Of a stretch of DNA of 64,000 nt, positions 1-51,800 are shown in pieces. Positions within the stretch are counted from its first letter, which is position 1, and each line of letters opens with the position of its first letter. Under the pieces are notes generated by a model. That model was not told the DNA's origin. It worked only from the letters and a program-made list of their open reading frames with translations, and did not search any database. The DNA lies in NCBI GenBank assembly GCA_018894105.1, contig CM032123.1, positions 21,863,744 to 21,927,743 of the forward strand, read 5' to 3'. The stretch comes from Jacaranda mimosifolia. Its lineage: Eukaryota > Streptophyta > Magnoliopsida > Lamiales > Bignoniaceae. The translations under genes and the position numbers were made by a program.

Positions 1-1335
1 GCGTAGAGCCAGAATGGTTTTCCAAAATCATTCATTTTAGCCAGTTAGTTGGGCTCCATAGGCTTAAGGTTTACTTGAGTTGATTAGTTTAAAGGAGTTT
101 AAACGAATATGAATATTCGACATTCTTAAGTCCTATGTCCAATGAATGGTAGAATCTAATAGATGACACACAAAAGCCAATTGCAAATCCTAATTGATGA
201 AAAGGAATTTTCTAAAAGTTAGAAAACTCCTACATGATTGATTTTGGAGGTTGACCGATTGATGCTACTTGCAGTCATTTTTGGCTTGATCAATTTAATT
301 GTTAAATTGACCTAATTAATTTAAGGAGTTAAATTAGGACCAATTAATTAAGGAGTTAATTATTTGGTGCCACATGACTATCAATTGGTCAAGTTAACTT
401 AAATAGTTAAGTTAACAATGTCTTGCTTAAGGAGTTAAGCAAATTGACTTAAAGAGTTAAGTGAAATTAATTAAATTAAAATATTTAATTTAATTAAAAT
501 AAAAAAATTAATTTTTGAGGAAAATTCAAATGAAATGTTCATTTGGTGTGAACTATAATTTATTTGGAAGACATTTCATGAGATGAAATAAAGATTCCAA
601 ATGAAATTCAAATTCACACAAAATTCAAAATTCACATGCCAACTTGCAAGAGCAAATAGGCGACCACCTTGAGGAAGGTGTGATGCTAGCTTGGCATCAC
701 ACCATCCTCCCTCTATATATAGATATAGAGAGCGAATGGGGCGGTACATGTGACTTGCAAGCTAGAATTAGATTCTCTCAATTTCCCTCCAAATTCTCAA
801 GTGTTGCCTCATGTGTTGAAGCTTCACTTCTCTTCTTCTCCTACCTCCAAATCAGGGCTTCATCCAAACTCTTCTTTTCATTATTCTCTAGCTAATATTG
901 AGAGGCAAAGGATTGTGCATTGGTGTGTGGATCTTTACATTAGAGGCAAGATAATTGGATTGCTAGCCTTTGGAGATCTTCTATTTCAGGTAGTAATTTT
1001 AGAGTGACGTTTGGAGGTCTTGCTGGATCCATTTTGAGCTGAATTTTTTAATTGAAGATACATCAAGGAGTTGGTGTTCTTTTGGTACAAATTTCACTCA
1101 AATAGAAGTTTGTTTGGTTGGGCAAAAGTTGCTCGAACTCTGCTGTGCCGCTGGAAGATAGTTTTCAAGGAGTTGAGATCTTCCTCCATCTTTCTTTGAT
1201 TTTCTGAAAATCAACGAAATTCTTCTTCCAAATCTAAATCTATGGCATGTTTAGATCCTTGGCTTCATATGTAGTCTAGTTATTTTAGCATTTTTTAGCT
1301 TTGATAATTGGATCCTAGTGCTACAAACGACTTCA
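1..1335 (+). repeat. Partial long copia LTR, 3' portion, cut by window edge
   Basis: This is the last 1.34 kb of the window's dominant LTR family; comparison with the LTR starting at 27441 puts base 1 at about LTR position 840. It holds a U3 hairpin array (290-462), a hairpin just before the promoter (677-703), a TATA-type element CTCTATATATAGATATAGAG (711-730), the conserved GTGTGGATC...TTAGAGGCAAG segment near 925-950, and the LTR end GACTTCA at 1335. The next bases are GAAAT and no primer-binding site follows, so it is either a solo LTR or the 3' LTR of a plus-strand element lying mostly outside the window. Confidence 0.85.
290..462 (+). promoter_or_regulatory. U3 array of six short hairpins
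   Basis: Six consecutive inverted repeats are visible. Arms: TCAATTTAA/TTAAATTGA (290-310), TAATTTAA/TTAAATTA (317-336, loop GGAG), TAATTAA/TTAATTA (345-362, loop GGAG), GTTAACTTAA/TTAAGTTAAC (393-416, loop ATAG), TTGCTTAA/TTAAGCAA (423-442, loop GGAG), ACTTAA/TTAAGT (447-462, loop AGAG). The arms differ, but all are closed by TTAA/TTAA, and five share a four-base loop ending in AG. The array lies in U3, 250-420 bp upstream of the TATA element. Any function is inference. Confidence 0.75.
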
Positions 1336-6462: not shown

Positions 6463-7683
6463 CAGTGTTTGAAAAATCAGACTGTTTGTTGAATCGAAAA
6501 ACCTACCCATTCATGGTTCACAGGTTCAACCGTTGATTGGACCGTAATTGAATTACAATTGAACTATGATATCATAATTACATAATATATATTGTATATA
6601 TTACTTGAAGTCAGCAAAATGTCAAAACATAAAACATAAAGAGCTTAAATGATATTATTCAACTTCACAATCCAAACTTCATGATTCATATTATAACATG
6701 TTCATCACAATTTAAGTCTCTTAAATCTAAAATCTAAACACAATAATAATTTAATTATATTAACCACTCCTCATCGTCTTCTCCATCCTCATCAAGGTTT
6801 TCATGAACTTAGTTGCTATTCTAGCACTAGTACCAATACCAATAGCAACATCATATAAGTTTGTCCTACCATAGTCATGTTTTCAAAGATAGTTAAATAT
6901 GTATCTTCTTCAAAAACACCACATGATAGTTGCTCTTCATCATCAACTACACAAAAATAAAAGAAAAAAATTATAACAATTCACTTCAGTATCTTACTAA
7001 ATCAACATTTAAAGTTTAGACTATAAAAATATAATATGTATACAATATAGATTGTTTCAAACATACCCTCTAGAGGACGTTGTCCTTGTTGATTGAGGAT
7101 TGGAGTTTCTAACTCCTCACAAAGTGTTTTTTCCAACTCTTCACAACTAAGAAAATGTTCTTCTTCTTCCTCCACAACCCAAAAATCAGTTTTGTCTATG
7201 CTTCTATAGTGAATTGAGTCATATCCTTTTTCGTTTACTTCAATTATGAAGATATTCACATGAAAAATAGATTTGAATGCATTTTAAAATGATAGTAGTT
7301 ATATATATTCAAATAAGTAGCTTTCTTTTGTTTGAGCTTCATGTTGTAGTGAACATATATAAGATCATTCAATCTTTGATATTCAAGTCGATTCCTTTTC
7401 TTGGAATGTATCCACTCAAAAACGCTCCAATTCCATTCACAGCCAGAAGAGCCACCTGTTTGTCCAAAAATCTTAACCACCGACATTTTCAAATTTAGTG
7501 CACTATCGCCAAATAATCTCCACCATTCATTTTGACAATTAAAGAAATAAGAAAAAAATATGTTCATCAAATCTTTAGTAAAAAGAAAATAAACATTAAA
7601 TTATTTAATCAAATATGAATCAAAAAATAAAAACATACCAGATTGAATGGTCTTGCATGATTTAATGACATGTTCATGTCCAA

Positions 7684-13865: not shown

Positions 13866-16800
13866 CTAAAGCCAATGCCCCATGGCCTTAAGACCCATAT
13901 TCTCAAGATGTTCTTCAAAGACCTTATGCGCTAGGAGTTTAGTCGGTGAATTTGTTATATTCTCTTCCAAGGCAACTCTCTCCACTCGAATGTCGTCTCT
14001 ACCAATGATTTCCCGGATCAAATAATATCACCTCAAAATGTGCTTGGATTTCTGATGAGATCTTAGCTCTTTGGCTTGCATCACTGCCCCAGTACTGTCA
14101 CAAAAGACAACAACTGGCTCAACAATGCTAAGCACTACATTCAACTCTTGAATGAAGTTTGTCATCCAAACACCTTCCTTTGCATCTTTCGAAGCCTTAA
14201 TATATTGTGCTTTAGTAGTAGAATCGGCTGTGGTATCTTGTTTGGAACTCTTCCAACTCACTGCGCCGCCATTGAGGCAAAATATAAATCTAGAAGTGGA
14301 TTTGAGGTTATCTACATCAAATTGGAAACTTGAGTCCGAAAATGCCTCTATTTTCAATTCTCCATTTCTGTATACCAAAAACAAGTCCTTAGTCCTTCTC
14401 AAGTACTTAAGGATGATTGCTTTCACGGCTATCCAACGACTCTTACTGGGATTGGATTTGAACCTACTCGTAACACTTAGCGAGTGTGCCACATCCGATC
14501 TTGTACATTAAACTGTATACATTATGCTACCAATAGCGAAGGCATAAGGTATGTATGACATCCTTAGTTTCTCTTCCTCAATCTTGGGGGCCATAGATTT
14601 GAGAGACGATTGGCATGTCCCATAGGAAGAATCCCTTCTTGGATTCTTCCACACCAAACCTCTTTAGTATCTTGTCAATGTACGAGATTTGGGATAGCCC
14701 CAGCATCCTCTTAGATCTATCTCTATAGATACATATTTCCAATACGTAAGTGCTTCTCCCAAATCCTTCATGGAGAATTGTGTAGATAACAATACTTTAG
14801 CACACTTTAACATTCCTACCTCATTCCCAATGAGAAGGATGTCATCGACATAAAGCACAATAAATTGTACTGACCTCCCACTAGCCTTCTTGTACACACA
14901 TGGTTCATACACATTTTTGACAAAGCCAAACGATTTAACTATTTTGTCAAAATGTATGTTCCAACTTCGGGACGCTTGTTTAAGTCCATAAATGAATCTT
15001 TGGAGTTTGCAAACCTTTTTCTCACTCTCCCTAGTAAAATCTTGTAGTTGCTCCATATAGATGTCGTCTTCAACATCACCATTGAGGAATGCAGTTTTCA
15101 CATCTATTTGCCATATCTCATAGTCGTTATATGCAGCTATGGCAAGTAGAATCCGAATGGACTTAGGCATAGAGACTAGTGAAAAGGTTTCCTCAAAATC
15201 AATACTGAGTCTTTGAGCGTAACCTTTTGCCACTAGTGGTGCCTTAAAGGTCACTACTTCTCCATCTACTCCAAGTTTTCGCTTATAGATCCACTTGCAA
15301 CCAACGAGAACTATTCCCTTCGGTGGATCTACCAAAGTCCATGCTTTGTTTGAGTACATAGAGTCCATTTCAGATCTCATAGCTTCAAGCTAGCATCCCG
15401 AATCTATGTCCAACATAGCTTCTTCATAGGTCTTCAGATCATCATCCGATTGGCCCGTCTCATGAAGGAATCCGAACCTTTTGGGTTGCTTCTTGATTTG
15501 GTCTGACCTATATAGTAGTTGTGTACTAGGCTCCACTTGCTCGCTTGTTTCCACCGCTTGTGGAATTTCATGATCATCTTGAACTTCATCAAGTTCAACA
15601 ACAACACCATTACTATCTAATAGAAATTGCTTTTCCAAAATGTAGGTATTCCACGAGACAAACACCTTTTGTTCTGAGAGATCATAGAAGTAGTAACCCA
15701 TAGACTCTCTAGGGTATCCCACAAACTTGCACAAGATGGATCTACTATCCAACTTTTCTCCCACTGTCTGTCTCACGTAGGCGGGAGATCCCAAAATCTT
15801 AAGATAATGGTAAGAGAGTGCTTTCCCATGCGCATGGTTGTAAATGGGTAGGGTGGAATGTAAATGGGTAGGGTTCCACCCTACCCAAGCCTATACCCAA
15901 ACAATACCCAAAATTAATACCTATTATCTACCCTACCCACTTAGACCCATTACCCATTGGGTCTGCTGTTTGGACCCAGCAGGCAGTCGATTCTGTTGCC
16001 GATTGAGGCAATAAATTCAACTGAAAATTTCCAACAGCCCATGAAAGAAAAGAAAAAAGAAGTCCTGCTAGTCTGCTACTAGTCTAAGCATTTTTTCTGA
16101 AGGAAAATATCATCTATAAAATTATAACGGCACAAGTCTAAGTTCTGATGGTTTCAGAGCATCTCTCAACCGATAATTATAGAAGAAGAAGAACAAGAAT
16201 ATTGAAGTTCCTTATTTTTAATATTAACCCACAAACGCCAAAAGAAAGATAGAAGGCCCAATTCTTTCAGTAAGAGGCGCAAACATAGATTTCAACTGTG
16301 GTTCCAGGCCATCAAAAGATATCTAAACCAAAAACAGGGGTGTAGTGGTGGAAAACAAACATATATAATTGTATAACATTATCTAGAAAAAAAGTAACCC
16401 ATTTTCACAAATCAGATTATACCTTTGATTGAAAACAAAAAAATGTTGTCGAGCAAAAATACAACCCAGCGGAGGCGCGCCGATGGATGTCAGTGGAGGC
16501 GTCACCGGTGGATTGCAGTGGTGGAGATGGGCGCTAGCGGAGGTGTTTTCTCACTTTTTTGGAGATGTGCAATGGAGGTGGCGCCGGTGGATGTGCATCG
16601 GTGGAGAGCGGTGGAGATGGGCACAGGCTGTCATCAGTCAGTGGTGGAGCCGTGGAGGTGTTTTCAGAATCTGATAATTTTTATCTATTATTATTTTTAG
16701 ATTAATTTAGACCGTTGGATTTTAATAAAATCCAATGGTCTAAAATATTTAGGGTGAATGGGTATTTAATGGGTAGAAATCCTACCCAGGCCCATTTAAA

Positions 16801-27440: not shown

Positions 27441-29273
27441 TGTTGGAATACTGCCCCCACAATCCAATTAGATTGACGTTGTAAACTATTTCACTTATGA
27501 TATAATCTTGATTGAATGATATTCTTTAAATGGCTATCTTCATCTTATACACATATTTACTTCACTAGCATTTGGTTAAGCCCTTAGATTACAAAAGACT
27601 ATGATGGGACTTGGTTACTCACTAGGTGGTGATCATGAAACAAGTCTTACACGGTCATGATCTTAAATACTTCCAAGTCATAGGATCTTATGAGACCAAG
27701 GACATCTAAGATCCGGATTACACAAACGATACATTAATCCAAAGAGTTAGATGTTACTCCGTTTCATGAGCAATGCCATATAAGATATGGGTGCATGTTG
27801 GTGGGAGCTTGTTAGAGAATAAGGCACTAAAGACCCGATTGGAGAATCCACTAGATAGCTATAGTAGCAAGTATGCAGTGGCAAGTTCTCTAGCTTACAC
27901 TAGTGCATATAATTAGTCCTTTGACCTAAGGATCCATTGTAACCTTGTGTTTAGGTCCTCATGCTTTAACTTTTTCCTGGCTATGTAGCAAGTCATTAGG
28001 GTGGAGATTGGGTATGAGCTACTTAGACATGGAGGTTTATGAGATCCAAGATCCAATCCGACTCCTCGTCGTTGTGAAGGAAGAGTACATCTCCCATGAA
28101 ATCCTTGCGCAAGCCAGTATGATAATTTGGAAAAGGAATTTTCCAAAGATTAGGTCATAATAGGGAATCGAACATTGAGAATAGAAACATAGTATCAAGG
28201 CTATAAAGGAGCCAACAACTATCTTGCCTTAGGCCTCTTTTGGGAGATAGTAGACAGAAGAACCATATTTGCGTGGCACACGTAGACCTAGAATGGTTCT
28301 CCAAAAACATTCATTTTAGCTAACTAGTTAGGTTTAATGGGCTTGAGGTTAGACATCGACCATGGAGATTAGGTACTCTTCAATTAATAGAGATTAATTG
28401 AATTGAGTCGATTAGTTTAAAGGAGTTTAAACTAAAGTGAATAATTGATATTCTAAAGTCACGGAGAGTTGTGAGCCAATGTTTAATAAATGGTAGAAAT
28501 GAACGGGTCACACACATAAGTCAATTTCATATCCTAGGGGATGAACGGGAATTTTCTAAGAGTAAGAAATATTCTCACAAAACCAATTTGGAGGTAACCG
28601 ATTAACACAAATATTGTGGTCATTTTTTTGGCTTGATCAATTTAACTGTTAAATTGATCTAATAAATTTAAGGAGTTAAATTAAAATCAATAATTAAGGA
28701 GTTAATTATTTGGTGCCACTTGACTATCAATTGGTCAAGTTAACTTAAGGGGTCAAGTTAACAATTGTTAGCTAAAGGAGATTAGCTAATGGACTTAAAA
28801 ACTTAAGTCAAGATGATTAATTAAATTAAAGGAGTTCAATTTAATTAAATGGAGAATTAATTTTTGAGGGAAAATTCAAATGAAAGGTTCATTTGGTGTG
28901 GCATTAGAATTTATTTGGATGACATTTCATAAGATGAAATGAAGATTCCAAATGAAATTCAAATGTACACATAATTCATATTCATGCCAACTTGCAATGC
29001 AAGTGGGCGGTCCCCCCTCTTGAGGAAGGTGTGATGACAAGGTCCCTCTATATATAGATATAGAGAGGGGTGGCCAAAAAGAGTTACAAGACATCACATT
29101 TCATGTGAATTAGATTCTCTCAAATTTTCCCTCCAATTTTCAAATGTTGCATCATATGTTGAAGCTTTACTTCTCATCTTCTCCAACCCCCAATTCAAGC
29201 CTTCATCCTTGCATGTTCTTTTCTTTATTATCCAGCTGATATTGAGGAGAATTGGTGTTGCATTGGTGTGTGG
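27441..29273 (+). repeat. Element C 3' LTR, part 1
   Basis: It begins TGTTGGAATACTGCCC after a degraded polypurine tract and continues to CATTGGTGTGTGG (29273), where element A is inserted. TATA is at about 29042-29064. The pre-TATA hairpin has lost its right arm. The remainder of this LTR is at 39664-40055. Confidence 0.88.
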
Positions 29274-30467
29274 TGTTGGAATAGTCCCCGGCAAGCCAAT
29301 AGGATTAGCCTTATAAAAGTTATTTCTTTGTAAAAAAATCTTAATTGAATGATATTCTTGATATGGCCACCTTCATCTTATTCTTTATATTACTTCACTT
29401 GCATTTGAATGAAGCCCTTAGATCACACATGATTACGGGACTTGGTTTGATGACCATAGAATAAGTCTTACACGGTCATGATTTTAAATCTACCAAGTCA
29501 TAGGATCTTAAGAGATGGGGCATCTAAGATCCGGATAAACTTGCACTAATGATGCATAAATCCAAGAGTTGAATATTGCTCCGTTCCATGAGCAATCTGT
29601 ATGAGATACGGGTGCATGTTAGTAGATGTTTGTTAGAGAACAAGGTACTGAAGACCCTCCAGAGAATCCACTAGATAGCCGTAGTGACAAGTCGATAGTG
29701 ATCAATTCTCCCGCTTATGCTAGTGCATATTATTAGTCCTCTGACCTGAGGATCCATGGCAACCTTGTGCCCGGTCCTTATGCTTTGACTCTTCCTTGAC
29801 CACTTAGCGGGTCTTTCGGGTTGAGGTTGGGTATGAAATACTTGGCATAGAGGTTTGTGAGATCCAAGATGGAATCCGACTCCTCGCTTTTGTGAAAAAT
29901 GAGTGCATCTCCTATGTGTTCTATAATGATCGATTCCAAGAAATCCTTGCGCAAGGTGGTGTGACAATTTGGAAAAGGAGTTTTCCAAAGGTGAGGTCAC
30001 ACAAGGGAATCGAACATTGAGAATAGAGACATAGTATCGAGGCTATTAGGGAGCCGACAAAAATCTTAGCCTAGGCCTCTTTCGAGAGATAGGAGATGAA
30101 AGGACCGTATTTGAATGGTACGCGTAGAGCTATGATGGTTCTCCAGAATATTCATTTTGGACAATTAGTTGGGCTCCATGGGCTTGAGGTTGGACATCGA
30201 CCATGGAGATTGGGTACTCTTCAATTAATTAGAGTAATTGAATTAAGTCGATTAGTTTAAAATGAGTTTTAAACTAAAATGAATATAAGATATTCAAAAG
30301 TCACAAAGAGATGTGAGCCCATGTCCAATGAATGGTAGAACCTATTGGGTCACACACAAAAGCCAAATAGCTTCCAAAATTGGTAGAGCAATTTTCCAAG
30401 TGTTGGAAAAATCGCCCTTTGGTGACCGATTTTCAAGGTTCCAATCTAATGGTCAATTTTGGTTTGA

Positions 30468-30637
30468 TTAATTTAAGTGTTAAATTAATAAACTAATTTA
30501 AGAGTTAAAATTGACCAATAATTAAGGAGTTAATTATTTGGTACCATGTTGACCATCAATTGGACAAGTTGACTTTAAGAGTTAAGTTGACTAATTTAAG
30601 CTTAAGAGTTAAGCTTGTTAGATTTAAGAGTTAAATC
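30468..30637 (+). promoter_or_regulatory. U3 hairpin array, element A version
   Basis: Hairpins include TTAATTTAA/TTAAATTAA (30468-30488), an AATTAA/TTAATT pair with loop GGAG (near 30530), AAGCTTAA/TTAAGCTT (30598-30616, loop GAG) and GATTTAA/TTAAATC (30621-30637, loop GAG). At the last position other copies have GACTTAA/TTAAGTC, a paired C-G to T-A change. At the preceding one they have TTGCTTAA/TTAAGCAA or TAGCTAAA/TTTAGCTA. Confidence 0.72.
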
Positions 30638-31004
30638 AAAGGTTGATTAATTAAATTAAAGGGTTTAATTTAATTAATGGGAAGAATACTTTTTGGAGGA
30701 AAAATTTAAATGAAGTGTTCATTTAAATTAGCATCTTAATTAATTTGGAATTAGATTCCAAATGAAATTGAAATGCACTTGAAATTCAAGTAAGACTTGA
30801 ATTCGAATTTTGCCAAGTAAATCAAAGGTTGATTAATTAAATTAAAGGGTTTAATTTAATTAATGGGAAGAATACTTTTTGGAGGAAAAATTTAAATGAA
30901 GTGTTCATTTAAATTAGCATCTTAATTAATTTGGAATTAGATTCCAAATGAAATTGAAATGCACTTGAAATTCAAGTAAGACTTGAATTCGAATTTTGCC
31001 AACT
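30633..31004. repeat. 186-bp tandem duplication in element A 5' LTR
   Basis: Two virtually identical copies are adjacent, 30633-30818 and 30819-31004, both running from AAATCAAAGGTTGATTAA to TTTTGCCAA. The 3' LTR has one copy, so the duplication arose after insertion. Confidence 0.92.
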
Positions 31005-31034
31005 TGGCATGCCACTTGGGCAGTCACCTTGAGA

Positions 31035-31090
31035 AAGGTGTGATGCCAACTAGCATCACACCTTCCACCCTCTATATATATATATAGAGA
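31035..31090 (+). promoter_or_regulatory. Pre-TATA hairpin and TATA box, element A 5' LTR
   Basis: Arms AAGGTGTGATGC (31035-31046) and GCATCACACCTT (31053-31064) form a perfect 12-bp stem with a 6-nt loop. The TATA tract TCTATATATATATATAGAG follows within 10 bp. Other copies keep a hairpin here with different arms. Confidence 0.7.
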
Positions 31091-31715
31091 GAGAGAGAGA
31101 GCATGCAAAATTCGAAATTAGCTGCTGAAAAGTGTGAGAATTAGATTCTTGCATTCCCTCCAAAATCTCTCTCTCCATGCATTGCATCGTGAGTTGAAGC
31201 TTTGCATTTCTTCTTCTTCCCAACCTGAAAATTGGCCTCTTCTATCTTATTTTCACCTATCTAAATCCATATTCTATTGAGAGGAAATTGGAATATTGTT
31301 TCGTGTGTGGATCATGTCAATAGAGGCAAGGCGATTGACTTGCTCGATTTTGGAGATCCACCTGCAGCAGCTTCCAGTTGGAGAATTTTTATGGAACGAT
31401 ACAGAATTATTTTTTGCTCCAATTTTTTATAGTATCTTCCCTTGTGTGTGGAGGTGTTCCATATTTAATTTCTTGAATTTTGGATCAGTTTATCCTGGGC
31501 AATTGTTGTCATCTTTCTGTTGTGCCAGTTCCAGACAGTTTCTGGACTCGTGAGAGATAGTTGATCTTCTCCTTGATTTTGAGCTACAAGAGGTAATTCT
31601 TCATCCTAATCCAAATATATAGCATGACTAGATCCTTGGGAGCTTGATTAGCTTAGTTATTTTCAAGCTTATGAAGTTTTGATTTATGGATCCTATTGTT
31701 ACTCTAGCCTTCAAG

Positions 31716-31728
31716 TGGTATCGGAGCC
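31716..31728 (+). other. Primer-binding site, initiator tRNA-Met type
   Basis: TGGTATCGGAGCC begins two bases after the LTR end. It matches the usual plant copia PBS TGGTATCAGAGC with one A-to-G change. It would prime minus-strand DNA synthesis. Confidence 0.88.
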
Positions 31729-33675
31729 TTTTTCATGCTATGTTTTGGATTATTGTTTGATTGATTCATGTGATGAATTGATCAATATCACCAAATAATT
31801 GATCCAATACATGGATTGGAATGTTTGGATGATGATGCTTGTGGCTCTATTGCTTGATGAATTGAAAGCATGCTTTTATGTGATTTAAGTGTTAATTCAT
31901 ATTGTTTTAGTATGTGTTTCAATTCATAGAGATAAATGTTGAATGTTGATTTAGCATTATTGATGTTATATGGTGATATAGCATGTTGATGTTTGATCAA
32001 AAGAGTTTTGGTCATTTTTGGATCCAATGTGATTGGAGTTTTGTTGGAGATTTTTGAAGAATACGATTCTTACTTGAACTTGATTTTTGAAGCTTGATCG
32101 AGCACTTAAATTTCCAGTTTTAAAATGTGTTTTAGATCTGGAAATTGGTCCATAATGTGTGATTTAATGTTTAGAATGATTTCTAGCATTTTTGGTGCAC
32201 AAAAGTTGAGCCAAAAATGGCATAACTTGCCTTTGACCCAAAACAGGGGCTGCTGCCGGCTTTGGTGCACATTGGCAGGGCTGTGACCGAAGCTTACTTC
32301 CCAGCCATGTTCTTGCCTCAGCCAGCAGTGCCCGGTCATGGGTTGGGTGAGTTCTTGTGCAATTTTTGGGCTCCTTTGGTGACTAGAAATGATGTTAAAT
32401 CATGTGTTATGGATGCACAAGTGTTGTGCAAGTTCTCAATATAATGTTTGACATTTTTCAAGCTCCTTAAATCTTGTTAAAGTTTATCTCCAATAGTTGC
32501 ATAAGTGTTATGCTTGTTTAATTATTTGTTTATGAGATAAGCATTTAATTGTTAGAATTAATTGTTAATTCTAGATTTATTTATTGTTCATTTAATTGTT
32601 GAATGAATGATGAATGAATGAATGGGGATGATCATGAGCCTTTAATATTGATTTTATATGTTTCAAGTTGTTGAAATGGGCTGTATTAAATTAAGGCTTG
32701 CATGACTCTTTATGAGAGTAGAATCACTAGGAGTAAGGATTTCTTTCTCATGTAAAAGTTACATGGAGCAAATGAGACCTTGAAGGCATGGAGACTTTTG
32801 AAGACCCATGAATGTATGGGATACACTCGTGTAATAGTTAGATTTAATCAACCCACCTAAAATCAACTAGGTGGTGCACATGTGGCTCTAAGTGTACCAC
32901 TTAGTTAGGCTCATGGTCATCCCACCTTAGGAGCATGCTAGGCGCATTTACTTATTTATGCTTTTCATATCCTATTAATGTATGAGATGCATGGTTAGGA
33001 TATAGAAAACCTAAATAAGAAGATAAAATGATGAGATCTTTGCAAGCAAAAACCCTCCACTTAGAATGTCTAAGTGCCTTTCAAATATTAAGTCAAAATA
33101 AATACAAATTAAAAGAGTTTTAATTAATCCAAGCCTTCTACCAATAGTATATGGCATGAAGATGCTACCACCTTTGTGTGATATACATCCGGTCATGGGG
33201 TCATACTTAGGTGGAAAGTTGTGACCATACACTTTGCATGAGATGCACCTTTGATTTGGGAACGCCCACACATTATACACTCGGTCACGAGGGATGTTAT
33301 GGTGCCCGTCTCGAATCAAAGTTTGATTGGTAGGTTTGACTTAACACTGAGTAATGTAGAGGTCATCCATCAGGGGATCTACATGAAATGGTGAGGCAAA
33401 ATATATAAATAATTGCATGAGATGCAATTAGCAAAAGTTGCTTACCTTTGGATTGCTCGTGGATATACATTCGATCACGGGGGTCCACTTGCAAGTCTTT
33501 AGGATCTTGATTCTTACTAGGAAATATGATTTCTCGAATTCTTCTTAGGGGTGAAGAATTTGATAAAATAGTGGGAGGAAAACATGCTTGAAAGACCACG
33601 AGCATGTTTTTAATATCAAATTCAATCACATGATTGATCTTTTTTTCGCCTTTGAGGATTTGTGAAATCTCAAGA
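31729..33675 (+). other. Element A non-coding leader
   Basis: About 1.95 kb separates the PBS from gag. No long frame is present. It has the GC-rich variable patch (about 32240-32345) and the four-site motif array at 33180-33485. It aligns with the leaders of elements C and D outside those patches. Confidence 0.75.
33180..33485 (+). promoter_or_regulatory. Leader motif array, four sites (element A version)
   Basis: Sites: 33180-33202 (ATACATCCGGTCATGGGG), 33272-33293 (ATACACTCGGTCACGAGGG), 33359-33380 (GGTCATCCATCAGGGG, the most divergent) and 33462-33485 (ATACATTCGATCACGGGGG). Flanking arms include ACAT/ATGT at site 2 and GTGGA/TCCAC at site 4. The ATACAY start is specific to this element. 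Confidence 0.65.
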
Positions 33676-36600
33676 ATGGTTTAATGTTCCACTCAACGTT
33701 ATTTTGGAAACCAATAAATTAACCGGGCCAAACTTTCACAATTAACTTAACCTCAAAACTGTTCTAGATTCCTAGAAACGGATAAATATCCTATATCAAA
33801 GTGCTCCAAATCCCATCAGGATTAAAAGTAGATCAAGAGACATAGTCTCATGATGGCATCTACAAACTTTAAAAGTCTCAAAGACATATGAATAGTACGT
33901 TGGTAAAAGTTTACAAGAGTTGTAAAGCAAACAAGGTATGAGAAGTTTATAGTGTCAAAAGAGATTTTTCAAGCTAGGATGAATGCGAAGTCATGTGTCG
34001 TCGACTAGGGTCTAAAAATGATTAAGCTTGGAAAAGCTTTTTCTACTTGGATGTAGTGATGGACAATAATTTCCATGAGGATTTGATCCTCACATCCTCT
34101 CTGAGTTTTATTGATCAAATTATTGATCAAGAAGGAAACTACCATGACAAGGACAAACCTTTGACATTTGTTTCCTCCTCCAAGTCTATGGGCCCTATGG
34201 GTGCTAGAAAGGGAGGTAAAAGGAAGAAAAGTTCTTCCTCCAAGGGAAAATAACTATTAAAGGCATCGGAAGGAGTCAAGAAAATTATAGAGGAAATAAT
34301 CGATATTATTTGTTTCTACTTTGGCAAGATAGGCCATTGGAAGCCATTTTGCAAGGAATACCTTGCAACCCTTTGGAAGGGTACGTACTTTATTGAAATG
34401 TATTTAAGGATTAATTCTTCCTGGATATATGATATCGCATGTGGTTCTTATCTTTCTAAGTTGTTACAAAGAATAAGAAAGAAGAATAAAACTAAGTGAT
34501 GTGGATATGATCCACTGCCTTGGCCAAGGAGCAAGAGTTGTGACTAAAGCCGAAGGCGTATAATAAGTTGGACTTAAGGAATTCCATAATTGTATTGAAC
34601 CCTTGCTATTATGTGCCATATATTGTTGAAAACATTACTTCAAATTTCTATTTTGGATAGTGAAGGATTTGATCCTTCTATATCAAATGGGAGATTGAAG
34701 GCATTAAAGAATGGGTTCTTTAATTGCTTATTCTATACTTAACAAAGGATTATACATTTTGGATTCTCAACTATCACTAACGAAATTTCAACAAAGTAAG
34801 GAAATTAGATATCCAAGAATATGCCATTCTTTGGCATGCAAGACTTGCTCATATCTCTAAGAATAGGATGAGCAAGTTAGAAGCTCTCAAAGCACTAAGT
34901 GTTAGTGGCATTGAGGATCTTCCTACTTGTGAATCCTGTTTAAAGGGAAAAATGACCAAAGCTCCTTTTGTAGGACAAATGGAGCGCTCCACAAGTCTCT
35001 TGGATTTGATCTATACAGATGTTAGTGGACCACTAAGAGTTAGTGGGAGAGGAGGCTATTCCTACTTCATCACCTCCACCGATGACTATAGTCAGTTTGG
35101 ACATGTGTTTCTTATGAAGAACAAGTCCAAAGTCTTTGAAAAGTTCAAAGTGTATAAGAGTAAAGTAGAAAAGCAATTGGGGCTAAGTATCAAAGCTCTT
35201 CGATCGGATTGAATACTTGAGCACCGAATTCTTGGATTATCTAAAGAAGAATGGGATTCTCTCTCAATGGACTCCACCCGGCACACCTCAATACAATAGA
35301 GTAGCCGAAAGGAAAAACCATACCCTGTTGGACGTGGTACATTCCATGTTGAGCTTCTTCGATATACCTATATCCTTTAGGGGATACGCCTTATAGATGA
35401 CAGCGAAGTTACTAAGTGTAGTACCTTCCAAGTCGGTACAAAAACACCATATGAGATATGGCATGGCAAAGTACCCTTTTACCAATATATCAAAGTTTAG
35501 GGATCTCTCGCCTACGTGAGAAAGACAGTGGGAGATAAGTTAGATAGTAGATCCACCTTGTGCAAGTTTGTGGGAACAAAAGAGAGTCTATGGGTTATTA
35601 CTACTTCTATGATCCCTCGGAACAAAAGGTGTTTGTTTCGAGGAATGCCACCTTTTTGGAAAAGGAATTTCTATAAGATAGAAAAGGCGTAGTTGTTGAA
35701 CTTGGTGAAGTTCAAAATGATGATAAAATCCCACAAGAGGTAGAAACAAATAAATATATCAAAGAGCCTTGCACATAACCTCTAAGAAGGTCAAACCGAA
35801 TCAAGAAGCAACCCAAAAAGTTTGAATTCCTTCATAAAATGGGCCAATCGGATAGTGATCCGAAGACCTATGAGGGAGCTATGTTGGACATAGATTCGGG
35901 ACATTGGCTTGGAGCCATGAAATCCAAAATGGACTCCATGTACTCAAACAAAGTATGGACTTTGGTAGATCTACCAAAGGGCATAGTTCCCTTTGGTTGC
36001 TAGTGGATCTATAAGCGAAAGCTTAGAGTTGATGGAAAAGTGGCGATTTTTTAGGCACGACTAGTGGCAAAAGGTTACACTTTAAGACCCGGTATCAATT
36101 TCAAGGAAACCTTTTCACCGGTTACTATACCTAAGTCCATTTGGATTCTACTTGCCATAACCACATATCATGACTATGAGATATGGCAACTGGATGTGAA
36201 AACTGCTTTCCTCAATATTGACATTGAAGAAGAAATCTATATAGAGCAACCACAAGTTTTACATCCAGGGGAGTGAGCAAAAGGTTTGCAAACTCCAAAG
36301 ATCCATTTATGGACTCAAACAAGCGTCCCAAAATTGGACCATACATTTTAACAAAACGATCAAATCATTTGGCTTTGTCAAAAATATGTATGGACCATGT
36401 GTGCATAAGAAGGCTAGTGGGGGTAGCATACAGTTTATTGTGCTTTATGTCGATGACACCCTTCTCATTGGGAATGCGGTAGGAATGTTAGAGTGTACTA
36501 AAGTATGGTTATCTACACAATTCTCTATGAATGATTTGGGAGAAGCATCCTACATATTGGGAATACATATCTATAGAGATAGATTTAAGAAGATACTGGG

Positions 36601-37412
36601 GCTATCCCAAACCCTATACATTGACCAGATACTAAAGAGGTTTAGTATAGAAGAATCCAATAAGGGATTTCTTCCCATGGGACATGGCATTCGTCTTTCC
36701 AAGTCTATGGCCCCAAGACTGGCAACAAGAGATAAAATATGTCCTACATACCTTATGCCTCCACTATTAGGAGCATAATGTATGCGGATCAATGTATAAA
36801 ACCGGATGTGGCATACTCGCTAAGTGTTACGAGTAGGTTCTAATCTAATTCCAGTGAGAGTCACTGGATAGCCGTAAAAGTAATCCTTAAGTACTTGAGA
36901 AGGACTAAGGACTTGCTTTTGGTTCACGGCAATGGAGAATTGAAACTAGAAGGATTTTCAGATTCAAGTTTCCAATCAGATATAAAAAACCTCAAATCTA
37001 CTTTTGGATTTACATTTTTCCTCAATGGCAGCGTGGTGAGTTCGAAGAGTTTCAACATGACACTACGGCCGAGACAACCATTGAGGTGAAATAATTTGTG
37101 GTTTTGGAAACCGCTAAAGAAGGTGTTTGAATAAAAACTTCATCCAAAAGTTGGATGTAGTACCTAGCGTGCATGAGCCCACAATTATCTTTGGAAGACA
37201 ATTTTTGGGCTTGAGCCAAGATCTCATCAATGATCCAAACACAGTAAATATGTTATCATTTGATATAAAATATCAAATTGATAGAGGCAACAACTGAGCG
37301 GACAAAGTTGCCTTATAAGAGAATTTAGCAGAACCACTATCTAAACCCGTAATAGCAAAAGGTCTTTGAAGAACATCTTGAGAAGATGGGTCTCAAGGCC
37401 ACGGGACATTAG
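33676..37412 (+). pseudogene. Element A gag-pol, heavily decayed
   Basis: The presumed ATG at 33676 is followed at once by a stop codon. Gag is degenerate; the zinc knuckle near 34310 reads CFYFGKIGHWKPFC (second Cys lost) and the protease motif is YDIACGSY. The integrase is the best piece (34868-35212: CESCLKGKM, DLIYTDVSGP, then RSD), and the Glu context VAERKNHT near 35308 is kept. RT spans about 35900-36780 with YVDD at 36446-36457 and LGIHIYRDR. RNase H follows (from 36895, RRTKDLLLV) to the stop at 37410-37412. Many frameshifts occur. Its retained LTRs are much better preserved than its genes. Confidence 0.85.
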
Positions 37413-37432
37413 CTTTCAGGCAAGTGGGAGAT

Positions 37433-39658
37433 TATTGGAATAGTGCCCGGCAAGACAATAGGATTGGCCTTGTAAAAGTTATTTCCTTGTAAAACAATCT
37501 TAATTGAATGATATTCTTTATATGGCCACCTTCATCTTATTCTTTATATTACTTCACTTGCATTTGGATGAAGCCCTTAGATCACACATGATTACGGGAC
37601 TTGGTTTGATGACCATAGAATAAGTCTTACACGGTCATGATTTTAAATCTACTAAGTCATAAGATCTTAAGAGATGGGGCATCTAAGATCCGGATAGACT
37701 TGCACTAACGATGCATAAATCCAAGAGTTTAATATTGCTCCATTCCATGAGCAATCTGTATGAGATATGGGTGCATGTTGTAGGTGTTTATTAGAGAACA
37801 TGGTACTGAAGACCCTCCATAGAATCCACTAGATAGCTGTAGTGACAAGTCGGTAGTGATCAATTCTCCCGTTTACACTAGTGCATATTATTAGTCCTCT
37901 GACCTGAGGATCCATGGTAACCTTGTGCCCAATCCTCATGCTTTGACTCTTCCTTGACCACTTAGCAGGTCTTTCGGGTTGAGCTTGGGTATGAGCTACT
38001 TGGCATGGAGGTTTGTGAGATCCAAGATGGAATCCGACTCTTCGCTTTTGTGAAAAGCGAGTGCATCTCCTATGTGTTCTATAATGATCGATTCCAAGAA
38101 ATCCTTGCGCAAGGTGGCGTGACAATTTGGAAAAGAAGTTTTCCAAAGGTGAGGTCACACAAGGGAATCGAACATTGAGAATAGAGACATAGTATCAAGG
38201 CTATTAAGGAGCTGACAAATATCTTGCGCTAGGCTTTTTTCGGGAGATAGGAGACGGAAGCACCGTATTTGCATGGTACACATAAAGCTATTATGGTTCT
38301 CCAGAAGATTCATTTCGGCCAATTAGTTGGGCTCCATAGGCTTGGGTTGGACATCGACCATGGAGATTGGGTACTCTTCAATTAATGAGATTAATTGAAT
38401 TGAGTCAATTAGTTTAAAATAAGTTTTAAACTAAAATGAATATAAGATATTCAAAAGTCACAAAGAATTGTGAGCCCATGTCCAATGAATGGTAGAACCT
38501 ATTGGGTTACACACAAAAGCCAAATAGCTTTCAAAATTGGTAGAACAATTTTCCAAGTGTTGGAAAAATCACCCTTTCGTGACCAATTTTCAAGGTTCCA
38601 ATCTAACGGTCAATTTTGGTTTGATTAATTTAAGTGTTAAATTAATCAACTAATTTAAGAGTTAAATTAGACCAATAATTACGGAATTAATTATTTGGTA
38701 CCATGTTGACCATCAATTGGAAAAGTTGACTTTAAGAGTTAAGTTGACTAATTTAAGCTTAAGAGTTAAGCTTGTTTGATTTAAGAGTTAAATCAAAGGT
38801 TGATTAATTAAATTAAAAGGTTTAATGAAGGAAAAATTTAAATGAAGTGTTCATTTAAATTAGTATCTTAATTAATTTGGAATTAGATTCCAAATGAAAT
38901 TGAAATGCACTCGAAATTCCAGTAAGACTTGAATTTGAATTTTGCCAACTTGGCATGCCACTTGGGCGGTCACCTTGAGGAAGGTGTGATGCCAACTAGC
39001 ATCACACCTTCCACCCTCTATATATATATAGAGAGAGAGAGAGAGAGCATGCAAAATTCGAAATTAGCTGCTGAAAAGTGTGAGAATTAGATTCTTGCAT
39101 TCCCTCCAAAATCTCTCTCTCCATGCATTGCATCATGAGTTGAAGCTTTGCATTTCTTCTTCTTCCCAACCTGAAAATCAGCCTCATCTACGTCATTTTA
39201 TCCTCTCTAACTCCATATTCTAGTGAGGGGAAATTGGAAGATTGTTTCTTGTGTGGATCATATCAATAGAGGCAAGGCGATTGACTTGCTCGGTTTTGGA
39301 GATCCACCTGCAGTAGCTTCCAGTTGGAGAATTTTTCTGGAACGATCCGAATGGATTTTTGGCTCTAATTTTTCATAGTAGCTTCCTCTGTGTGTGGAGG
39401 TGTTCCAGATTTAATTTCCTGAATTTTTGAGCAGTTTAACCTGGGAAATTTTTGTCATATTTCTGCCGTGCCAGTTCCAGATAGTTTCTGGACTTGTGAG
39501 ATATAGTTGATCTTCTCCTTGATTTGAGCTACAAGAGGTAATTCTTCATCCTAATCCAGATCTATAGCATGAATAGATCCTTGGAAGCTCGAGTAGCTTA
39601 GTTATTTTCAAGCTTATGAAGTTTTGATTTATGGATCCTATTGCTACTCTAGCCTTCA
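37433..39658 (+). repeat. Element A 3' LTR (2226 bp)
   Basis: It starts TATTGGAATAGTGCCCGG, with the TG terminus mutated to TA, after the polypurine-rich CAAGTGGGAG. It ends CTAGCCTTCA. It matches the 5' LTR except for the single-copy 186-bp segment and a deletion of about 28 bp near 38825. The AGAGAG run after TATA differs in length from the 5' LTR. Confidence 0.92.
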
Positions 39659-44672: not shown

Positions 44673-46912
44673 TGTTGGAACAGTGCCCTACAAGCCAATT
44701 AGATTGGCTTTGTAAACTATTTTCTTGTAAGACAATCTTAACTAAATGATTATATGGCCATCTTCATCTTATGCTCATTATTTACTTTGCTCACATTTGG
44801 ATAAAGCCCTTAGATCACACAAGACTACGGGACTTGGTCATGCAATAGGTGGTGATCATGGAATAAGCCTTTCATGGTTGTGATCTTAAATCTTCCAAGT
44901 CATAAAATCTTATGAGACAGGGCATCAAAGATCCGAATAGACTTGCACTAATGATTCATAAATCCAAGGGTTGGATGTTGTTTCGTTCCATGAGTAATCC
45001 CATATGAGATATGGATGCATGTTAGTGGGTGCTTGTTAGAGAACAAGGCACTGAAGACACGCCCAGAGAATCCACTAGATAGCCTAATTGGCAAGTCAGT
45101 AGTGGTAAGTTCTCCAGTTTACGCTAGTACATATTATTAGTCTTTTGACCCAAGGATCCATGGTAACCTTATGTTTGGTCCTTATACTTTGACTCTTCCT
45201 AGGTCAATTAGCGGGCTACTCAGGTTGAGATCGGGCATGAACTACTAGCCATGGAGTTTTGTGAGATCCAAAATGGAATCCGACTCTTCACTTTTGTGAA
45301 GGGAGAGTACATCCCCTATGTGTTCTATAATGAACGATTCCTAAAAATTCTTACACAAGGTGATGTGAAATTTGGAATGGCGTTTCCAAAAATGAGGTCA
45401 CTAAGGGAATCGAACATTGAGAATAGAAGCATAGCATCGAGGCTATTATGGAGCTCACTAATATCTTGCCGTAGGCCTCTTTCATGGAGATAGGAGATAA
45501 AAGGATCGTATTTGCATGGTACGCGTAATGCTATAATGGTTCTCCAAGAGCATTCATTTCGGCCAATTAGTTGGGCTATATGGGCTTGAGGTTGGACATC
45601 GACCATGGAGATTAGGTACTCTTTAATTAATGAGATTAATTGAATTGAGTCGCTTAGTTTAAAAGAGTTTAAACTAATGTGAATATTTGATATTCCATAA
45701 GTCACAAGGAGTTGTGAGCCCTTGTCCAATGAATGGTAGAACCTAATGGGTCACACATAAAATCCAAATTGCTTGACCTATTGAATGAAGGAGAATTTTC
45801 TAAGTGTTAGAAAATTACTCTTAACCGAATTTGAAGGAAGCAAAAATTAGAGTCATTTTTGGCTTGATCAATTTAAGAGTTAAATTGGTCAATTTAATTT
45901 AAAAGTTAAATTAAGATCAATTAATTAAGAGTTAATTAATTGATTTCACACAACTATCAATTGGTCAAATTAATTTAAGCGTTAAATTAATTTTGACTAG
46001 CTTAAGGAGTTAAGCACTTTGACTTAAAAGTTAAGTCAAAGCATTATTGATTAAATTAAAGTGTTTAATTGAATTAAATTGGAGAGTTAATTTTGGAGAG
46101 AATTGTTAAATAAAGGGTTCATTTAATATGGAATTAGAATTTATTTGGAAGACATTTCATGAGATGTAATGTAAATTCCAAATGACATTCAAATTCACAC
46201 ATCACTAATTATTAGTGGCCACCTTGAACATGTGGCATCCCCTTCTTGAAGTTGGTGTGTGACCACACACCATCCTCTCTTATATATAGATATAGAGGGT
46301 GGCCATAATGCATGTTGATCGCAAGGTGTGAATTATTCTCCCAACAACAAACTTGGTTAGTGGGTATCTAGTAGTTAGATTCTCCAAAAATACTCTCCAA
46401 CCTCCCTCATCCTCCCCTTCCCTTCTTGGTCTTCTTTCCCCCATTTCTCTGCAATTATCTCCAACTATTTTTTTAGAGAAAATCTCATTCCATTTGGTGT
46501 GCAAACTATCTCGTTACAGGCAAAATGTTTGGGTTGCTATTGCTATTGGAAAGTTGTTTCTTGCAACCTCTTGCAACGAGTTCTGGGAGGACTTATTTTG
46601 TTCTATTGAGCTAAAATTTTAGTTGTTGGATCTTCAAGGTGTTATGGGAATATAGTAAAATTTTCAACACAAAATGAGAAGTTTTACTTGGGGAAATCGG
46701 TTGGTGTTTCTACTGCACCAGTGAATAGACTATTTCAAGAGTTGAAGAGTGTTTTCTCTCATTCCTTGATTTTCGATTTCATCAAGGTATTTCCCTCTCT
46801 AAATCTGAATCCTATGCATGTCTAGATCCTTGTGGATATGCGTGGGCTAGTTTTATTGAGTTATTTTTTTTTTTTTGAATTTTAATGGATCCTAGCGCCA
46901 CACATACCCTCA
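44673..46912 (+). repeat. Element D 5' LTR (2240 bp)
   Basis: It starts TGTTGGAACAGTGCCC and ends CATACCCTCA. It contains an especially regular U3 hairpin array (45866-46041), a pre-TATA hairpin TGGTGTGTG/CACACACCA (46253-46272) and TATA near 46281-46296. Confidence 0.93.
45866..46041 (+). promoter_or_regulatory. U3 hairpin array, element D version
   Basis: Stems include GATCAATTTAA/TTAAATTGGTC (45866-45890, loop GAG, one wobble), TCAAATTAATTTAA paired with TTAAATTAATTTTGA (45965-45996, one bulge), AGCTTAA/TTAAGC (45999-46015, loop GGAG) and a perfect 11-bp CTTTGACTTAA/TTAAGTCAAAG (46017-46041, loop AAG). Confidence 0.75.
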
Positions 46913-48873: not shown

Positions 48874-51800
48874 ATGGCTAAAAATTCACTCGCAAGCATT
48901 TTAGAAACCAATAACCTCATCGGGCCTAACTTCCAAGATTGGTTGAGAAACCTTAAGATAATTCTCGACTCTAAAAAGAGGACTTATATCCTTGATCAAA
49001 GTTCTGTGGACACAATTGGTGATGATGCCACTGACGAGCTTCGTGAAATGTTCATGAAATTTCTAGATGATGATCTACAAGTTAGATGCGTCATGTTGGC
49101 CTCCATGTCTAATGACCTCCAAAAGACTCATGAGCATATGAAACATGCGAGTGAGATCTACAAACACATATAAGAGTTGTATGGTGTACAATCTAGACAT
49201 GAAAGGTTCACTTTGTTGAAGGAGTTCTTTAGGTCAAGGATGGGTAAGGGGACAAGTATCCATGATCACGGGCTTAAGATGATAGGACTCATTGATAAGC
49301 TTGGACAACTTGATGAGATTATGGACAATAACCTCTATGTGGATTTGATCCTCCAGTCATTACCACCATCGTTCGACCAATTCGTTATGAACTTTAACAT
49401 GTCTAAGAAAGAAATGACGATTAATGAATTGGTGAACATACTTGTGACCGCTGAGGCGATGATGCAAAAGGAAAAGCCTCTTATGCTTGCTTCTTTCTCC
49501 AAGTCAAATGGCCCTAGGGGCCCAAGAAATGGAGGTAAGAGGAAGAAGAGTTCTCCCTCAAAAAGGAAACAACTCGTGAAATGTTCTGGGAGGGTCAAGA
49601 AAAAGGCTAAAGCCAATGCAAGTTATTTCTACTGTGGTGAAAAGGGGCATTGGAAGAGAAACTGCAAGGCTTACCTTGCAACCCTTGAGAAGGGTATGTA
49701 TTTTAGTGAAGTGCATTTAACGACCAATTCTTCCCCATAGGTATTTGCTACCGCATATGGTTCTCACCTTTGTAATTCGTTACAAGGGATGGAAAGAAGA
49801 AAGAGTCTGTGTGAAGGGGATATGATCCTCCGCCTAGGAAAATGAAGCAAGAGTTGTGGCCATAGTCCAAGGCATAATCAAGTTAAACTTGGAGAATACT
49901 AGCATTGTACTTAATCCAGCTTATTATGTACCGAATCTTATTAAGAACATTATATCAATTCCTATTCTTGATTATGAAGGATATGATTTTTCTATATCGA
50001 ATGGGACATTGAAGGCATTGAAGAATAGTTCTTTAATTGCTCAAGGTACATTAATTAACGGATGGTACATACTTGATTCTCAACCTTGACTAATGCACAT
50101 TCAATCAAGTAAAAGAAAGTTAGATCCAAGAAGATGACATCCTTTAGCATGCAAGACTTGGGCATATCTCTAAGAATAGGATGAGCAAGATAGAAGCTCT
50201 CAAAGCACTAAAGTTAGTAGCATTGAGGACTTTCCTATTTCTAAATCTTGTTTGAAGGGAAAAATGATCAAAGCTCCATATGTAGGACAATCGGAGCACT
50301 TCACAAGTCCTTTGGATTTGTTCTATATAGATGTTTGTAGCCCACTAAGAGTTAGTGCAAGAAATAGTTATTCTTACTTCATCACCTTCACCGATAATTA
50401 TAGTCGGTTTGGACACGTGTATCTTATGAATTACAAGTCCAAAGCCTTTAAAAAGATCAAAGAGTATATGAATGAATTGAAAAAGCAATTAGGACTTAGT
50501 ATTAAAGCTCTTCGATCAGATCGAGGGGAAAATTAATTAAGTATCGAATTCTTTGATTATTTAAAGGAGAATGGAATTATCCCACAATGGACTCCGCCCG
50601 GCACACCCCAACACAATGGAGTAGCCAACAGAAGAAACCATACCTTATTGGACATGGTACGTTCCATGATGAGCTTCTTCGATGTGTTCATATCCTTTCG
50701 GCAATATGCCTTAGAAACGATAGTGAAGCTAATAAATGTAGTACCTTCAAAGTCGGTGCCAAAAACGCCGCATGAGATGTGCTATGGCAAAGCACAATTT
50801 TATCATTACCTTAGGGTTTAGGGGTCTCCTACTTACGTGAGATGGACAGTGGGAGACAAGTTGGATAGAAGATCCACTTTGTACAAGTTTGTGGGATACC
50901 CAAGAGAGTCTATGAGTTATTACTTTTATGATCCCTCGGAACAAAGAGTGTTTGTTTCGAGGAACGCCACCTTTTTGGAAAAGGATTTTCTATTAGATAG
51001 AAATGGCATTATTGTTGAACTTAATAAAGTTCAAGATGATCATCAAATCCCATAGGCGGTGTAAACAAGCAAGCAATAAGAGCCTCACACACAACTTCTG
51101 AGAAAGTCGGACCGAATCAAGAAGCAACTAGAAAGGTTCAGATTCCTTCATGAGACGAGCCAATCAGATATTGATCCAAAGACCTATGAGGAAACTATGT
51201 TGGATATAGACTCGGGACATTGGCGTAATGCCAAAAGATCCAAAATCAACTCCATGTACTCCAACAAAGTATGGACTTTGGTAGATCTACTAAAGGGAAT
51301 AGTTTCCATTAGTTGCAAGTGGATGTACAAGAGAAAGGTAGGAGTTAATGGAGAGATAGTGACCTTTAAGGTACAACTAATGGCAAAGGGTTACATTCGT
51401 AGACCCGGTATCAATTTCAAGGAAACCTTTTCACCAGTTGCAATACCTAAGTCCATTTGAATTCTACTTGACATAGCTGCATATTATGACTATGAGATAT
51501 GGCAAATGGATGTAAAAACTTCTTTTCTCAATGGAGACATTGAAGAAACAATCTATATAGAGCAACCACAAGGTTTTACATCCGAAAAGAGTGATCAAAA
51601 GGTTTACAAACTCCAGAGATCCATTTATAGACTCAAACAGGCATCCCGAAGTTGGAATGTACATTTTGATAAGACAATCAAATTGTTTGTCTTTGTTAAA
51701 AATATGTGTGAAGCATGTGTATAAATAAAAGCTAGTGGGAGTAGCATACAGTTTATTGTACCTTATGTCGATAACATCCTTCTTATTGGAAATGAGGTAA

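Follow-up and report, generated by a model that had tools for sequence, protein, structure and literature searches.

Hairpins with differing arms and a common G-ending loop form an array in the U3 of a Ty1/copia element of Jacaranda mimosifolia

A nest of one Ty1/copia element and its U3 array

We analysed a 64-kb stretch of DNA (the window) from a host assembly of 707 Mb in 65 contigs, and found it to be a nest of about 15 copies of a single plant Ty1/copia long terminal repeat (LTR) element. The LTR, about 2.24 kb long, starts with TGTTGGAATAG and ends with CTTCA. Directly 3′ of it lies TGGTATC, which we take to be the primer site. TG...CA ends, a 5-bp target duplication and a primer site adjoining the 5′ LTR agree with a Ty1/copia LTR. 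Scanning six protein fragments for domains identified copia gag, integrase and RVT_2 families (PF14223, PF00665, PF07727 and PF25597) in four of them and gave no domain match in the other two. Among the 120 best of 6524 matches, the reverse transcriptase (RT) fragment was nearest to an unnamed protein (78%) and next to a Sesamum protein (71%). One single insertion, element A, consists of LTR c8, an internal region and LTR c9, with the 5-bp target duplication TGTGG at the outer sides of both LTRs. Rfam gave no match at gathering level within the window, and two scans of viral contigs found no relatives. The window holds 15 array copies and the adjacent 200 kb (G000:C7:21930001-22130000) holds 12, which makes the window an unusually dense nest. 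Its main features are as follows.

1..735, plus strand: U3 of LTR copy c1, which holds the finding; 5′ part lost at the window edge
14667..15389, minus strand: reverse transcriptase fragment (RVT_2), from the domain scan
28098..29075, plus strand: U3 array of copy c7
29274..39658, plus strand: element A, a single insertion (LTR c8, internal region, LTR c9)
31719..37434, plus strand: internal region of element A
38094..39050, plus strand: U3 array of copy c9
45340..46300, plus strand: U3 array of copy c11
49174..49737, plus strand: copia-type gag fragment with zinc knuckle, from the domain scan
54631..55598, minus strand: U3 array of copy c13

The initial annotation had reported about six small hairpins at 290-462, repeated in every full LTR copy. 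We found instead an array of about 15-18 inverted-repeat sites, with loops mostly of 3-4 nt, that begins near LTR position 690 and runs for about 0.9 kb up to the TATA box; it was indeed seen in all 15 U3 copies, with some members lost in individual copies. Perfect hairpins of at least 7 pairs number about ten per copy (150 in the 15 copies; mean 9.2 over an enlarged set of 53 copies). The five hairpins that had been quoted are perfect (423-442, 11743-11762, 30598-30616, 30621-30637 and 46021-46037). Closure by TTAA/TTAA, which had been ascribed to all hairpins, holds for the central group only; the others close with AAA/TTT, CTAA/TTAG, GAA/TTC, CAT/ATG or AAT/ATT. The members in copy c1, all on the plus strand, are listed below.

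87..104, plus strand: hairpin GTTTAAA-GGAG-TTTAAAC
208..226, plus strand: hairpin TTTTCTAA-AAG-TTAGAAAA; CCAA/TTGG in c8 and c9
290..310, plus strand: hairpin TCAATTTAA-TTG-TTAAATTGA
317..336, plus strand: hairpin TAATTTAA-GGAG-TTAAATTA
339..368, plus strand: hairpin with arms ACCAATTAATTAA / TTAATTATTTGGT, loop GGAG and one mismatch
375..391, plus strand: hairpin TGACTA-TCAAT-TGGTCA, an odd member with a 5-nt loop and one mismatch
393..416, plus strand: hairpin GTTAACTTAA-ATAG-TTAAGTTAAC
423..442, plus strand: hairpin TTGCTTAA-GGAG-TTAAGCAA; arms vary by subfamily, with pairing mostly kept
444..465, plus strand: hairpin TTGACTTAA-AGAG-TTAAGTGAA with one mismatch; GATTTAA/TTAAATC in c4, c8, c9 and c13
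467..497, plus strand: hairpin TTAATTAAATTAAA-ATA-TTTAATTTAATTAA
527..545, plus strand: hairpin CAAATGAA-ATG-TTCATTTG
573..589, plus strand: hairpin ATTTCAT-GAG-ATGAAAT
677..703, plus strand: inverted repeat GGTGTGATGC / GCATCACACC with a 7-nt loop, the last before the TATA box; homologues at 38979 and 54654
711..730, plus strand: TATA-box region, palindromic too, CTCTATAT-ATAG-ATATAGAG

Two extra members, TTTGGAAAA/TTTTCCAAA (28126-28147) and TTCAATTAAT/ATTAATTGAA (28379-28402), have homologues in other copies and lie upstream of the stretch covered by the initial annotation; in c1 they are either beyond the window edge or deleted. Within the array of LTR c8, 30632-30816 and 30818-31002 form a perfect 185-bp tandem duplication; it is absent from the partner LTR c9 and therefore probably arose after insertion. 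Immediately downstream of LTR c1, 1336-1570 is a partial and inverted array copy, 81% to 342-577, which may mark the margin of a nested LTR in reverse orientation.

Hairpin excess, loop strand bias and occurrence elsewhere

We counted hairpins with perfect arms of at least 7 and loops of 3-5 nt, using 30 dinucleotide shuffles per set as the measure of chance. The U3 sequences (15 copies, 13.8 kb) contained 150 perfect hairpins against 5.3 (s.d. 2.1) after shuffling, and 90 against 0.3 when arms of at least 9 were required. There was no excess in LTR positions 1-650 (10 copies; 2 against 0.9) or in R-U5 (five copies; 1 against 0.8), and five stretches of internal region gave 51 against 5.4. Loop lengths in U3 peaked at 3 nt (86) and 4 nt (55), with 0-21 at other lengths and 1.75 expected at each; the other lengths are also raised because the AT arms are repetitive. 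The internal region of element A gave 17 loops of 3 nt, 6 of 4 nt and 0-3 at other lengths (0.5 expected each). Coding periodicity was rejected as the source of the 3-nt loops there, the counts for loops of 0, 6, 9 and 12 nt being 1, 0, 0 and 1.

The loops showed a marked strand bias. On the sense strand, 123 of the 150 U3 loops ended in G and 4 began with C, and the exact loops included GAG (26), GGAG (19) and AGAG (12). The loops had been described as 3-4 nt long and usually ending in AG; the length stands, and the recurring feature is the final G. Internal-region loops followed the same pattern (final G in 35 and initial C in 3 of 51). After loop registration, 153 of 187 loops were G-final, leaving aside the member with a 5-nt loop and badly paired rows, and the base preceding the 3′ arm was mostly G in 13 of 14 helices. 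Folding, which the initial annotation had suggested as a check, returned 286-497 as a chain of hairpins (z -6.8 as RNA, -10.9 as DNA); it did not discriminate between the strands, as the antisense folded equally strongly.

Such loops were specific to the element in the genome sampled. Neighbouring host DNA dissimilar to the window (153 kb) contained 150 hairpins with 3-4-nt loops, only 10 of which had a G-ending or C-starting loop, and the clusters listed there were AT microsatellites. The corresponding fraction was 115/141 in 47 kb similar to the window and 2/15 in four samples (16 kb) from other chromosomes. The rarity of these loops in dissimilar host DNA speaks against a host-wide process, and the 153 kb led us to set aside host-wide template switching. 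A similar hairpin density in control sequence, named at the outset as grounds for doubting the array, was looked for and not found in the shuffles, the two other LTR parts or the dissimilar DNA of the same genome.

An RT-alignment scan of bacterial and archaeal genomes yielded 12 contigs (L001-L012). L001-L007 are contigs filed under bacterial genomes, among them Solirubrobacter, Streptomyces and Bradyrhizobium; they encode Ty1/copia RTs and are probably eukaryotic contamination. Two of them, representing two other families, contained similar hairpin groups. L001 (RT 69% identical) had 25 and 18 hairpins with 3- and 4-nt loops (1.3 expected each), and L003 (RT 65% identical) had 17 and 2 (0.75 expected); there were 2-5 such hairpins in all in L002, L004 and L005, and 0-4 in L006-L012. 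A group of five in L003 (6414-6630) precedes a TATA motif at 6744, and another five in L001 (8820-9130) precede one at 9234; in both contigs the arms are unrelated to those of the window. The largest group in L001, ten hairpins with 3-4-nt loops at 10633-11390, lies past the promoter and ahead of the coding sequence that follows, in what is probably the leader of that element. Two homologous stretches of L001 also differ by paired changes (633 against 8820, 686 against 8874). G-ending and C-starting loops accounted for 32/43 and 2/43 in L001, and 16/19 and 2/19 in L003.

Hairpins also occurred in coding sequence. The leader and coding region of element A contain 24 scattered shorter hairpins, 18 with G-ending loops. 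We compared 17 open fragments, together 7.2 kb of the window and in part mutually homologous, with synonymous-codon shuffles, counting arms of at least 6 and 3-4-nt loops, and found 28 hairpins against 5.8 (maximum 12 of 100). The same test gave 9 against 2.3 for L001, 14 against 3.3 for L003, 7 against 2.3 for L002, 5 against 1.4 for L005, 7 against 2.2 for L006 and 11 against 5.3 for L012. All 11 coding sets (L008 and L009 were left out) lay above their codon-shuffle mean, so part of the excess is general. One coding hairpin of the window, ATACTAAA-GAGG-TTTAGTAT, corresponds to ATACTGAA-GAGG-TTCAGTAT in L001.

Paired arm changes and their timing

An all-pairs covariation test on the 15 copies had no power (best E 0.35), and we turned to a defined structure and then to more copies. 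The null placed each column's substitutions randomly on the tree, in 300 replicates for 15 copies and 200 for 53. Over 137 pairs, selected because at least three copies form each, the 15 copies had 46 two-sided Watson-Crick cells against 16.5 in the null (s.d. 4.6, maximum 30 of 300), and 1527 of 1852 cells were Watson-Crick against 1381 (maximum 1463). A counting tool gave 50 two-sided cells, compared with 26 for shuffled columns and 14-28 for slid versions, with pair types matching the shuffles (58 against 57.7). The larger set added 38 copies from the same genome, dropping the window's own locus and matches of fewer than 350 bases; 28 of its 53 rows are of the c1 type. It contained 111 two-sided cells against a null of 36 (s.d. 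9, maximum 65 of 200), and 6177 of 7136 cells were Watson-Crick against 5694 (maximum 5976). Counted per pair, two-sided change affected 25 pairs (null 18.9, maximum 30), and there were 26 covarying pair types (null 19.6, maximum 30); both figures lay within the null. Loop registration, which favours pairing by construction, gave 1707 of 1925 Watson-Crick cells with 10 hairpins lost, and more than one Watson-Crick type at 74 of 141 pair positions, though some rows were mis-registered. That arms change on both sides together, as first noticed, held in both sets. Because the paired substitutions exceed the null cell counts, selection for structure and template switching were the right pair of options to propose. 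We conclude that the original observation is confirmed and larger than described, and that its interpretation is partly supported.

The two-sided changes were absent after the one proven insertion: the LTRs of element A, c8 and c9, differed on one side only at 5 of 5 differing pairs (22 pairs gapped). Copies c11 and c12, a probable LTR pair whose target duplication is unproven, differed one-sidedly at 8 of 8 (46 gapped), as did the close copies c3 and c7 at 15 of 15 (33 gapped). Among the 12 copy pairs compared, distant ones showed up to 8 two-sided Watson-Crick changes. As differences after insertion are one-sided and those between distant copies partly two-sided, paired change seems to be a feature of the replicating lineage and not of post-insertion decay.

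Arms diverged less than spacers between copies. We rejected this as a sign of selection by itself, since arms also had fewer private changes; without composition matching, arms were not more constrained than spacers (p=0.12). Dividing old by private changes (I/T) gave, for A/T columns, 0.43 in the arms as against 0.71 in the spacers (p=0.001); arms and spacers did not differ in G/C columns. Loop columns had ratios of 0.23 for G/C (17 columns) and 1.0 for A/T (12 columns). The A/T arm ratio and the loop G/C ratio favour selection on the arms and the loop G, with the middle base of the loop free. Pair parsimony gave on average 23 one-branch two-sided changes, with 35 compensations and 15 reversions. 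Branch-helix events involved a single pair in 19 of 21 cases and two pairs in the other 2, and these one-pair steps are no less expected under selection than under template switching. Near the end of pol in element A (37258-37278, offset 5540), a perfect hairpin, ATTTGATAT-AAA-ATATCAAAT, is 2 nt longer than its four imperfect relatives and is a possible template-switch scar.

If the sense RNA is selected, G-U mismatches should be tolerated and A-C mismatches should not. In the 15 copies, G-U and A-C numbered 71 and 63 in aligned cells, 45.5 and 50 with parsimony ancestors, and 46 and 32 after loop registration (p=0.14); shared states numbered 8 and 2, singletons 17 and 21. The 53 copies gave 213 and 179 over all pairs (null 332 and 283), 143 and 113 at well-registered pairs (p=0.07), 21 and 18 among intermediates of covarying pairs, and 16 and 13 among states in at least three copies. 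Clade-majority non-Watson-Crick pairs were G-U in 24 and A-C in 11 cases, against 39 and 39 private ones (p=0.10). Hairpins with one mismatch gave 14 G-U and 10 A-C in U3 (local shuffles 1.7 to 1), 17 and 5 in the internal region (shuffles 1.1 to 1; a second sample 15 and 8, 1.5 to 1), 21 and 2 in L001 (local shuffles 2.1 to 1) and 5 and 2 in L003; L002, L004 and L005 together had 1 and 4, and L006-L012 had 3 and 6. Loops of 6-15 nt also gave 46 and 8 in L001 and 31 and 4 in L003, so the G-U excess of these two contigs is not specific to the present hairpins. Overall, the direction was often RNA-like and its strength borderline, with U3 by itself lacking the preference.

Known systems and competing readings of the array

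Palindrome-rich LTR control regions are a known kind, and the initial statement that no named element has this form was too strong. Sirevirus LTRs carry clustered palindromic boxes (RM boxes) just upstream of the TATA box, one box being repeated, mostly with a CGG-CCG core and in CpG islands; Tnd-1 is described without that core (PMC2829016). Hairpins in maize Copia LTRs have a common consensus with a 3-nt centre (PMC10760457), and a palindrome-rich cis-region is reported for maize Sireviruses (PMC10760457, PMC5311732). The present array shares with these accounts the Ty1/copia LTR, the clustering upstream of TATA, the high sequence variability and the 3-nt centre. It differs in that each hairpin has its own AT-rich arms, and only loop length and the sense-strand G recur. 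By composition (no CpG-island program was used), the array has a GC content of 0.325 and AT-rich, differing arms, with no CGG-CCG core or CpG island. By eye, about 20 nt with one purine run separate the end of pol from the 3′ LTR in element A, with no polypurine-tract cluster of the Sirevirus type. Lacking this cluster and the GC core, the element was not filed under Sirevirus. Among the papers listed by searches on LTR palindromes and hairpins, none describes, as judged by title and opening of the abstract, heterogeneous LTR hairpins that share a loop. The combination of mixed arms with one strand-specific loop signature, two-sided changes and like groups in two families is apparently new, at least to us.

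Two viral systems offer a comparison at the RNA level. Hepatitis B virus (HBV) has dispersed RNA packaging signals, stem-loops with a common RGAG loop (PMC7612645), which resemble the array in that the RNA of an element replicated by reverse transcription forms several stem-loops whose stems differ and whose loop is shared; here, too, the loop motif recurs on the genomic strand, as the G-ending loops show. Capsid-protein binding has been demonstrated in HBV, whereas our evidence is sequence-only and the loops are shorter and less uniform. The HIV-1 nucleocapsid has more than two dozen GGAG sites (PMC7395439). These are likewise short G-rich motifs, read by the nucleocapsid part of Gag, but they lie in the 5′ leader, the best of them in a weak UUUU:GGAG helix and not in hairpin loops, whereas the array lies in the 3′ U3.

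The reading we place first, at a probability of roughly 0.4, is that the array comprises about 15-18 stem-loops maintained by selection in replicating Ty1/copia lineages and acting in sense RNA, the genomic transcript having U3 at its 3′ end. The stems would be free in sequence, and each would expose a G-final loop of 3-4 nt (GAG, RGAG or GTG). A loop shared by otherwise unconstrained stems would most naturally be recognised by an RNA-binding protein, and a first candidate, a guess by analogy with HBV and HIV, might be the zinc knuckle of the element's own Gag. Numerous weak sites, most crowded in U3 and sparser over the rest of the RNA, could then act jointly in packaging or particle assembly. 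We count in favour of selected sense-RNA stem-loops the loop strand bias, the base before the 3′ arm, the two-sided cells, the constraint on A/T arm columns, the low ratio of the loop G/C columns, the coding-hairpin excess, the position of the largest L001 group away from the promoter, the clade-majority G-U pairs (24 to 11) and the one-mismatch G-U excess of L001 and the internal region. Against it stand the weak G-U preference in U3, the second internal sample with its ratio close to that of shuffles, the unspecific excess in L001 and L003, the equal antisense folding, arms that appear unconstrained without composition matching, unconstrained A/T loop columns, the generality of part of the coding excess, and covarying pairs and pair types within the null. 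A transcription-factor site cannot demand long perfect arms of free sequence, so the array calls for either a structural role or a mutational mechanism.

It is possible, if rather unlikely, that the hairpins work in DNA, as has been proposed for the Sirevirus boxes: an enhancer or chromatin region upstream of TATA would consist of cis-regulatory palindromes recognised in double-stranded form or as small cruciforms, and its transcripts may feed small RNAs. The array does end at the TATA box, and the groups of five in L003 and L001 lie upstream of TATA motifs; LTR 1-650 and R-U5 lack such hairpins, U3 mismatches are nearly symmetric between G-U and A-C, DNA folding is strong (z -10.9), and the Sirevirus boxes provide a precedent. 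However, a palindrome reader needs no loop strand bias, similar hairpins occur in coding sequence and also away from the promoter, and arms vary between hairpins and families, so that no shared recognition site explains their length and perfection. Still less likely, in our estimate, is a purely mutational origin in which RT template switching (snap-back over a 3-4-nt loop) perfects imperfect inverted repeats without selection. Template-switch mutations can create and maintain hairpins, with 4-nt loops favoured, a proposal made for DNA replication on the basis of reconstructed rRNA histories (PMC8794818), and would explain perfect stems and one-step paired changes; in our case, such loops are rare in other host DNA. 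The prominence of 3-4-nt loops, a strand bias suited to a strand-specific step, confinement to the element, the lack of two-sided change in element A after insertion, the one-branch two-sided changes and the lengthened hairpin at offset 5540 all agree with such a mechanism. Yet LTR 1-650 is copied by the same RT and has almost no hairpins, A/T columns in the arms show signs of constraint, the G of the loop is retained, and the events come without telling multi-pair bursts.

The near head-to-tail spacing and the common core TTAA-NAG-TTAA of the central group suggest that one ancestral hairpin was duplicated in tandem, its copies keeping the loop while their arms drifted. Duplication cannot keep drifting arms complementary, and it leaves unexplained the flanking, coding-region and other-family hairpins with unrelated arms. 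The covariation largely refutes it as a full account, which makes it very improbable in that role; it may account for part of the central group.

Selected stem-loops in sense RNA remain our first choice, and their extension to a distributed packaging code, in which Gag would read dozens of G-loop stem-loops with co-evolving stems, densest in U3 and sparser across leader and coding sequence, is a doubtful proposal for a lineage of plant Ty1/copia elements. If true, it would to our knowledge be the first of its sort in an LTR retrotransposon, and promoter-proximal LTR palindromes would be by-products of an RNA signal; palindrome-rich LTR control regions have so far been read as enhancers or small-RNA sources. 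Drifting stems with kept pairing and a strand-specific loop separate a structural code from a sequence code, a distinction that is directly testable. At the RNA level, the array would be a packaging signal for plant retrotransposons; if its origin is mutational, reverse transcription would sculpt palindromes. The array points to a structural signal that is kept while the sequence of the element drifts.
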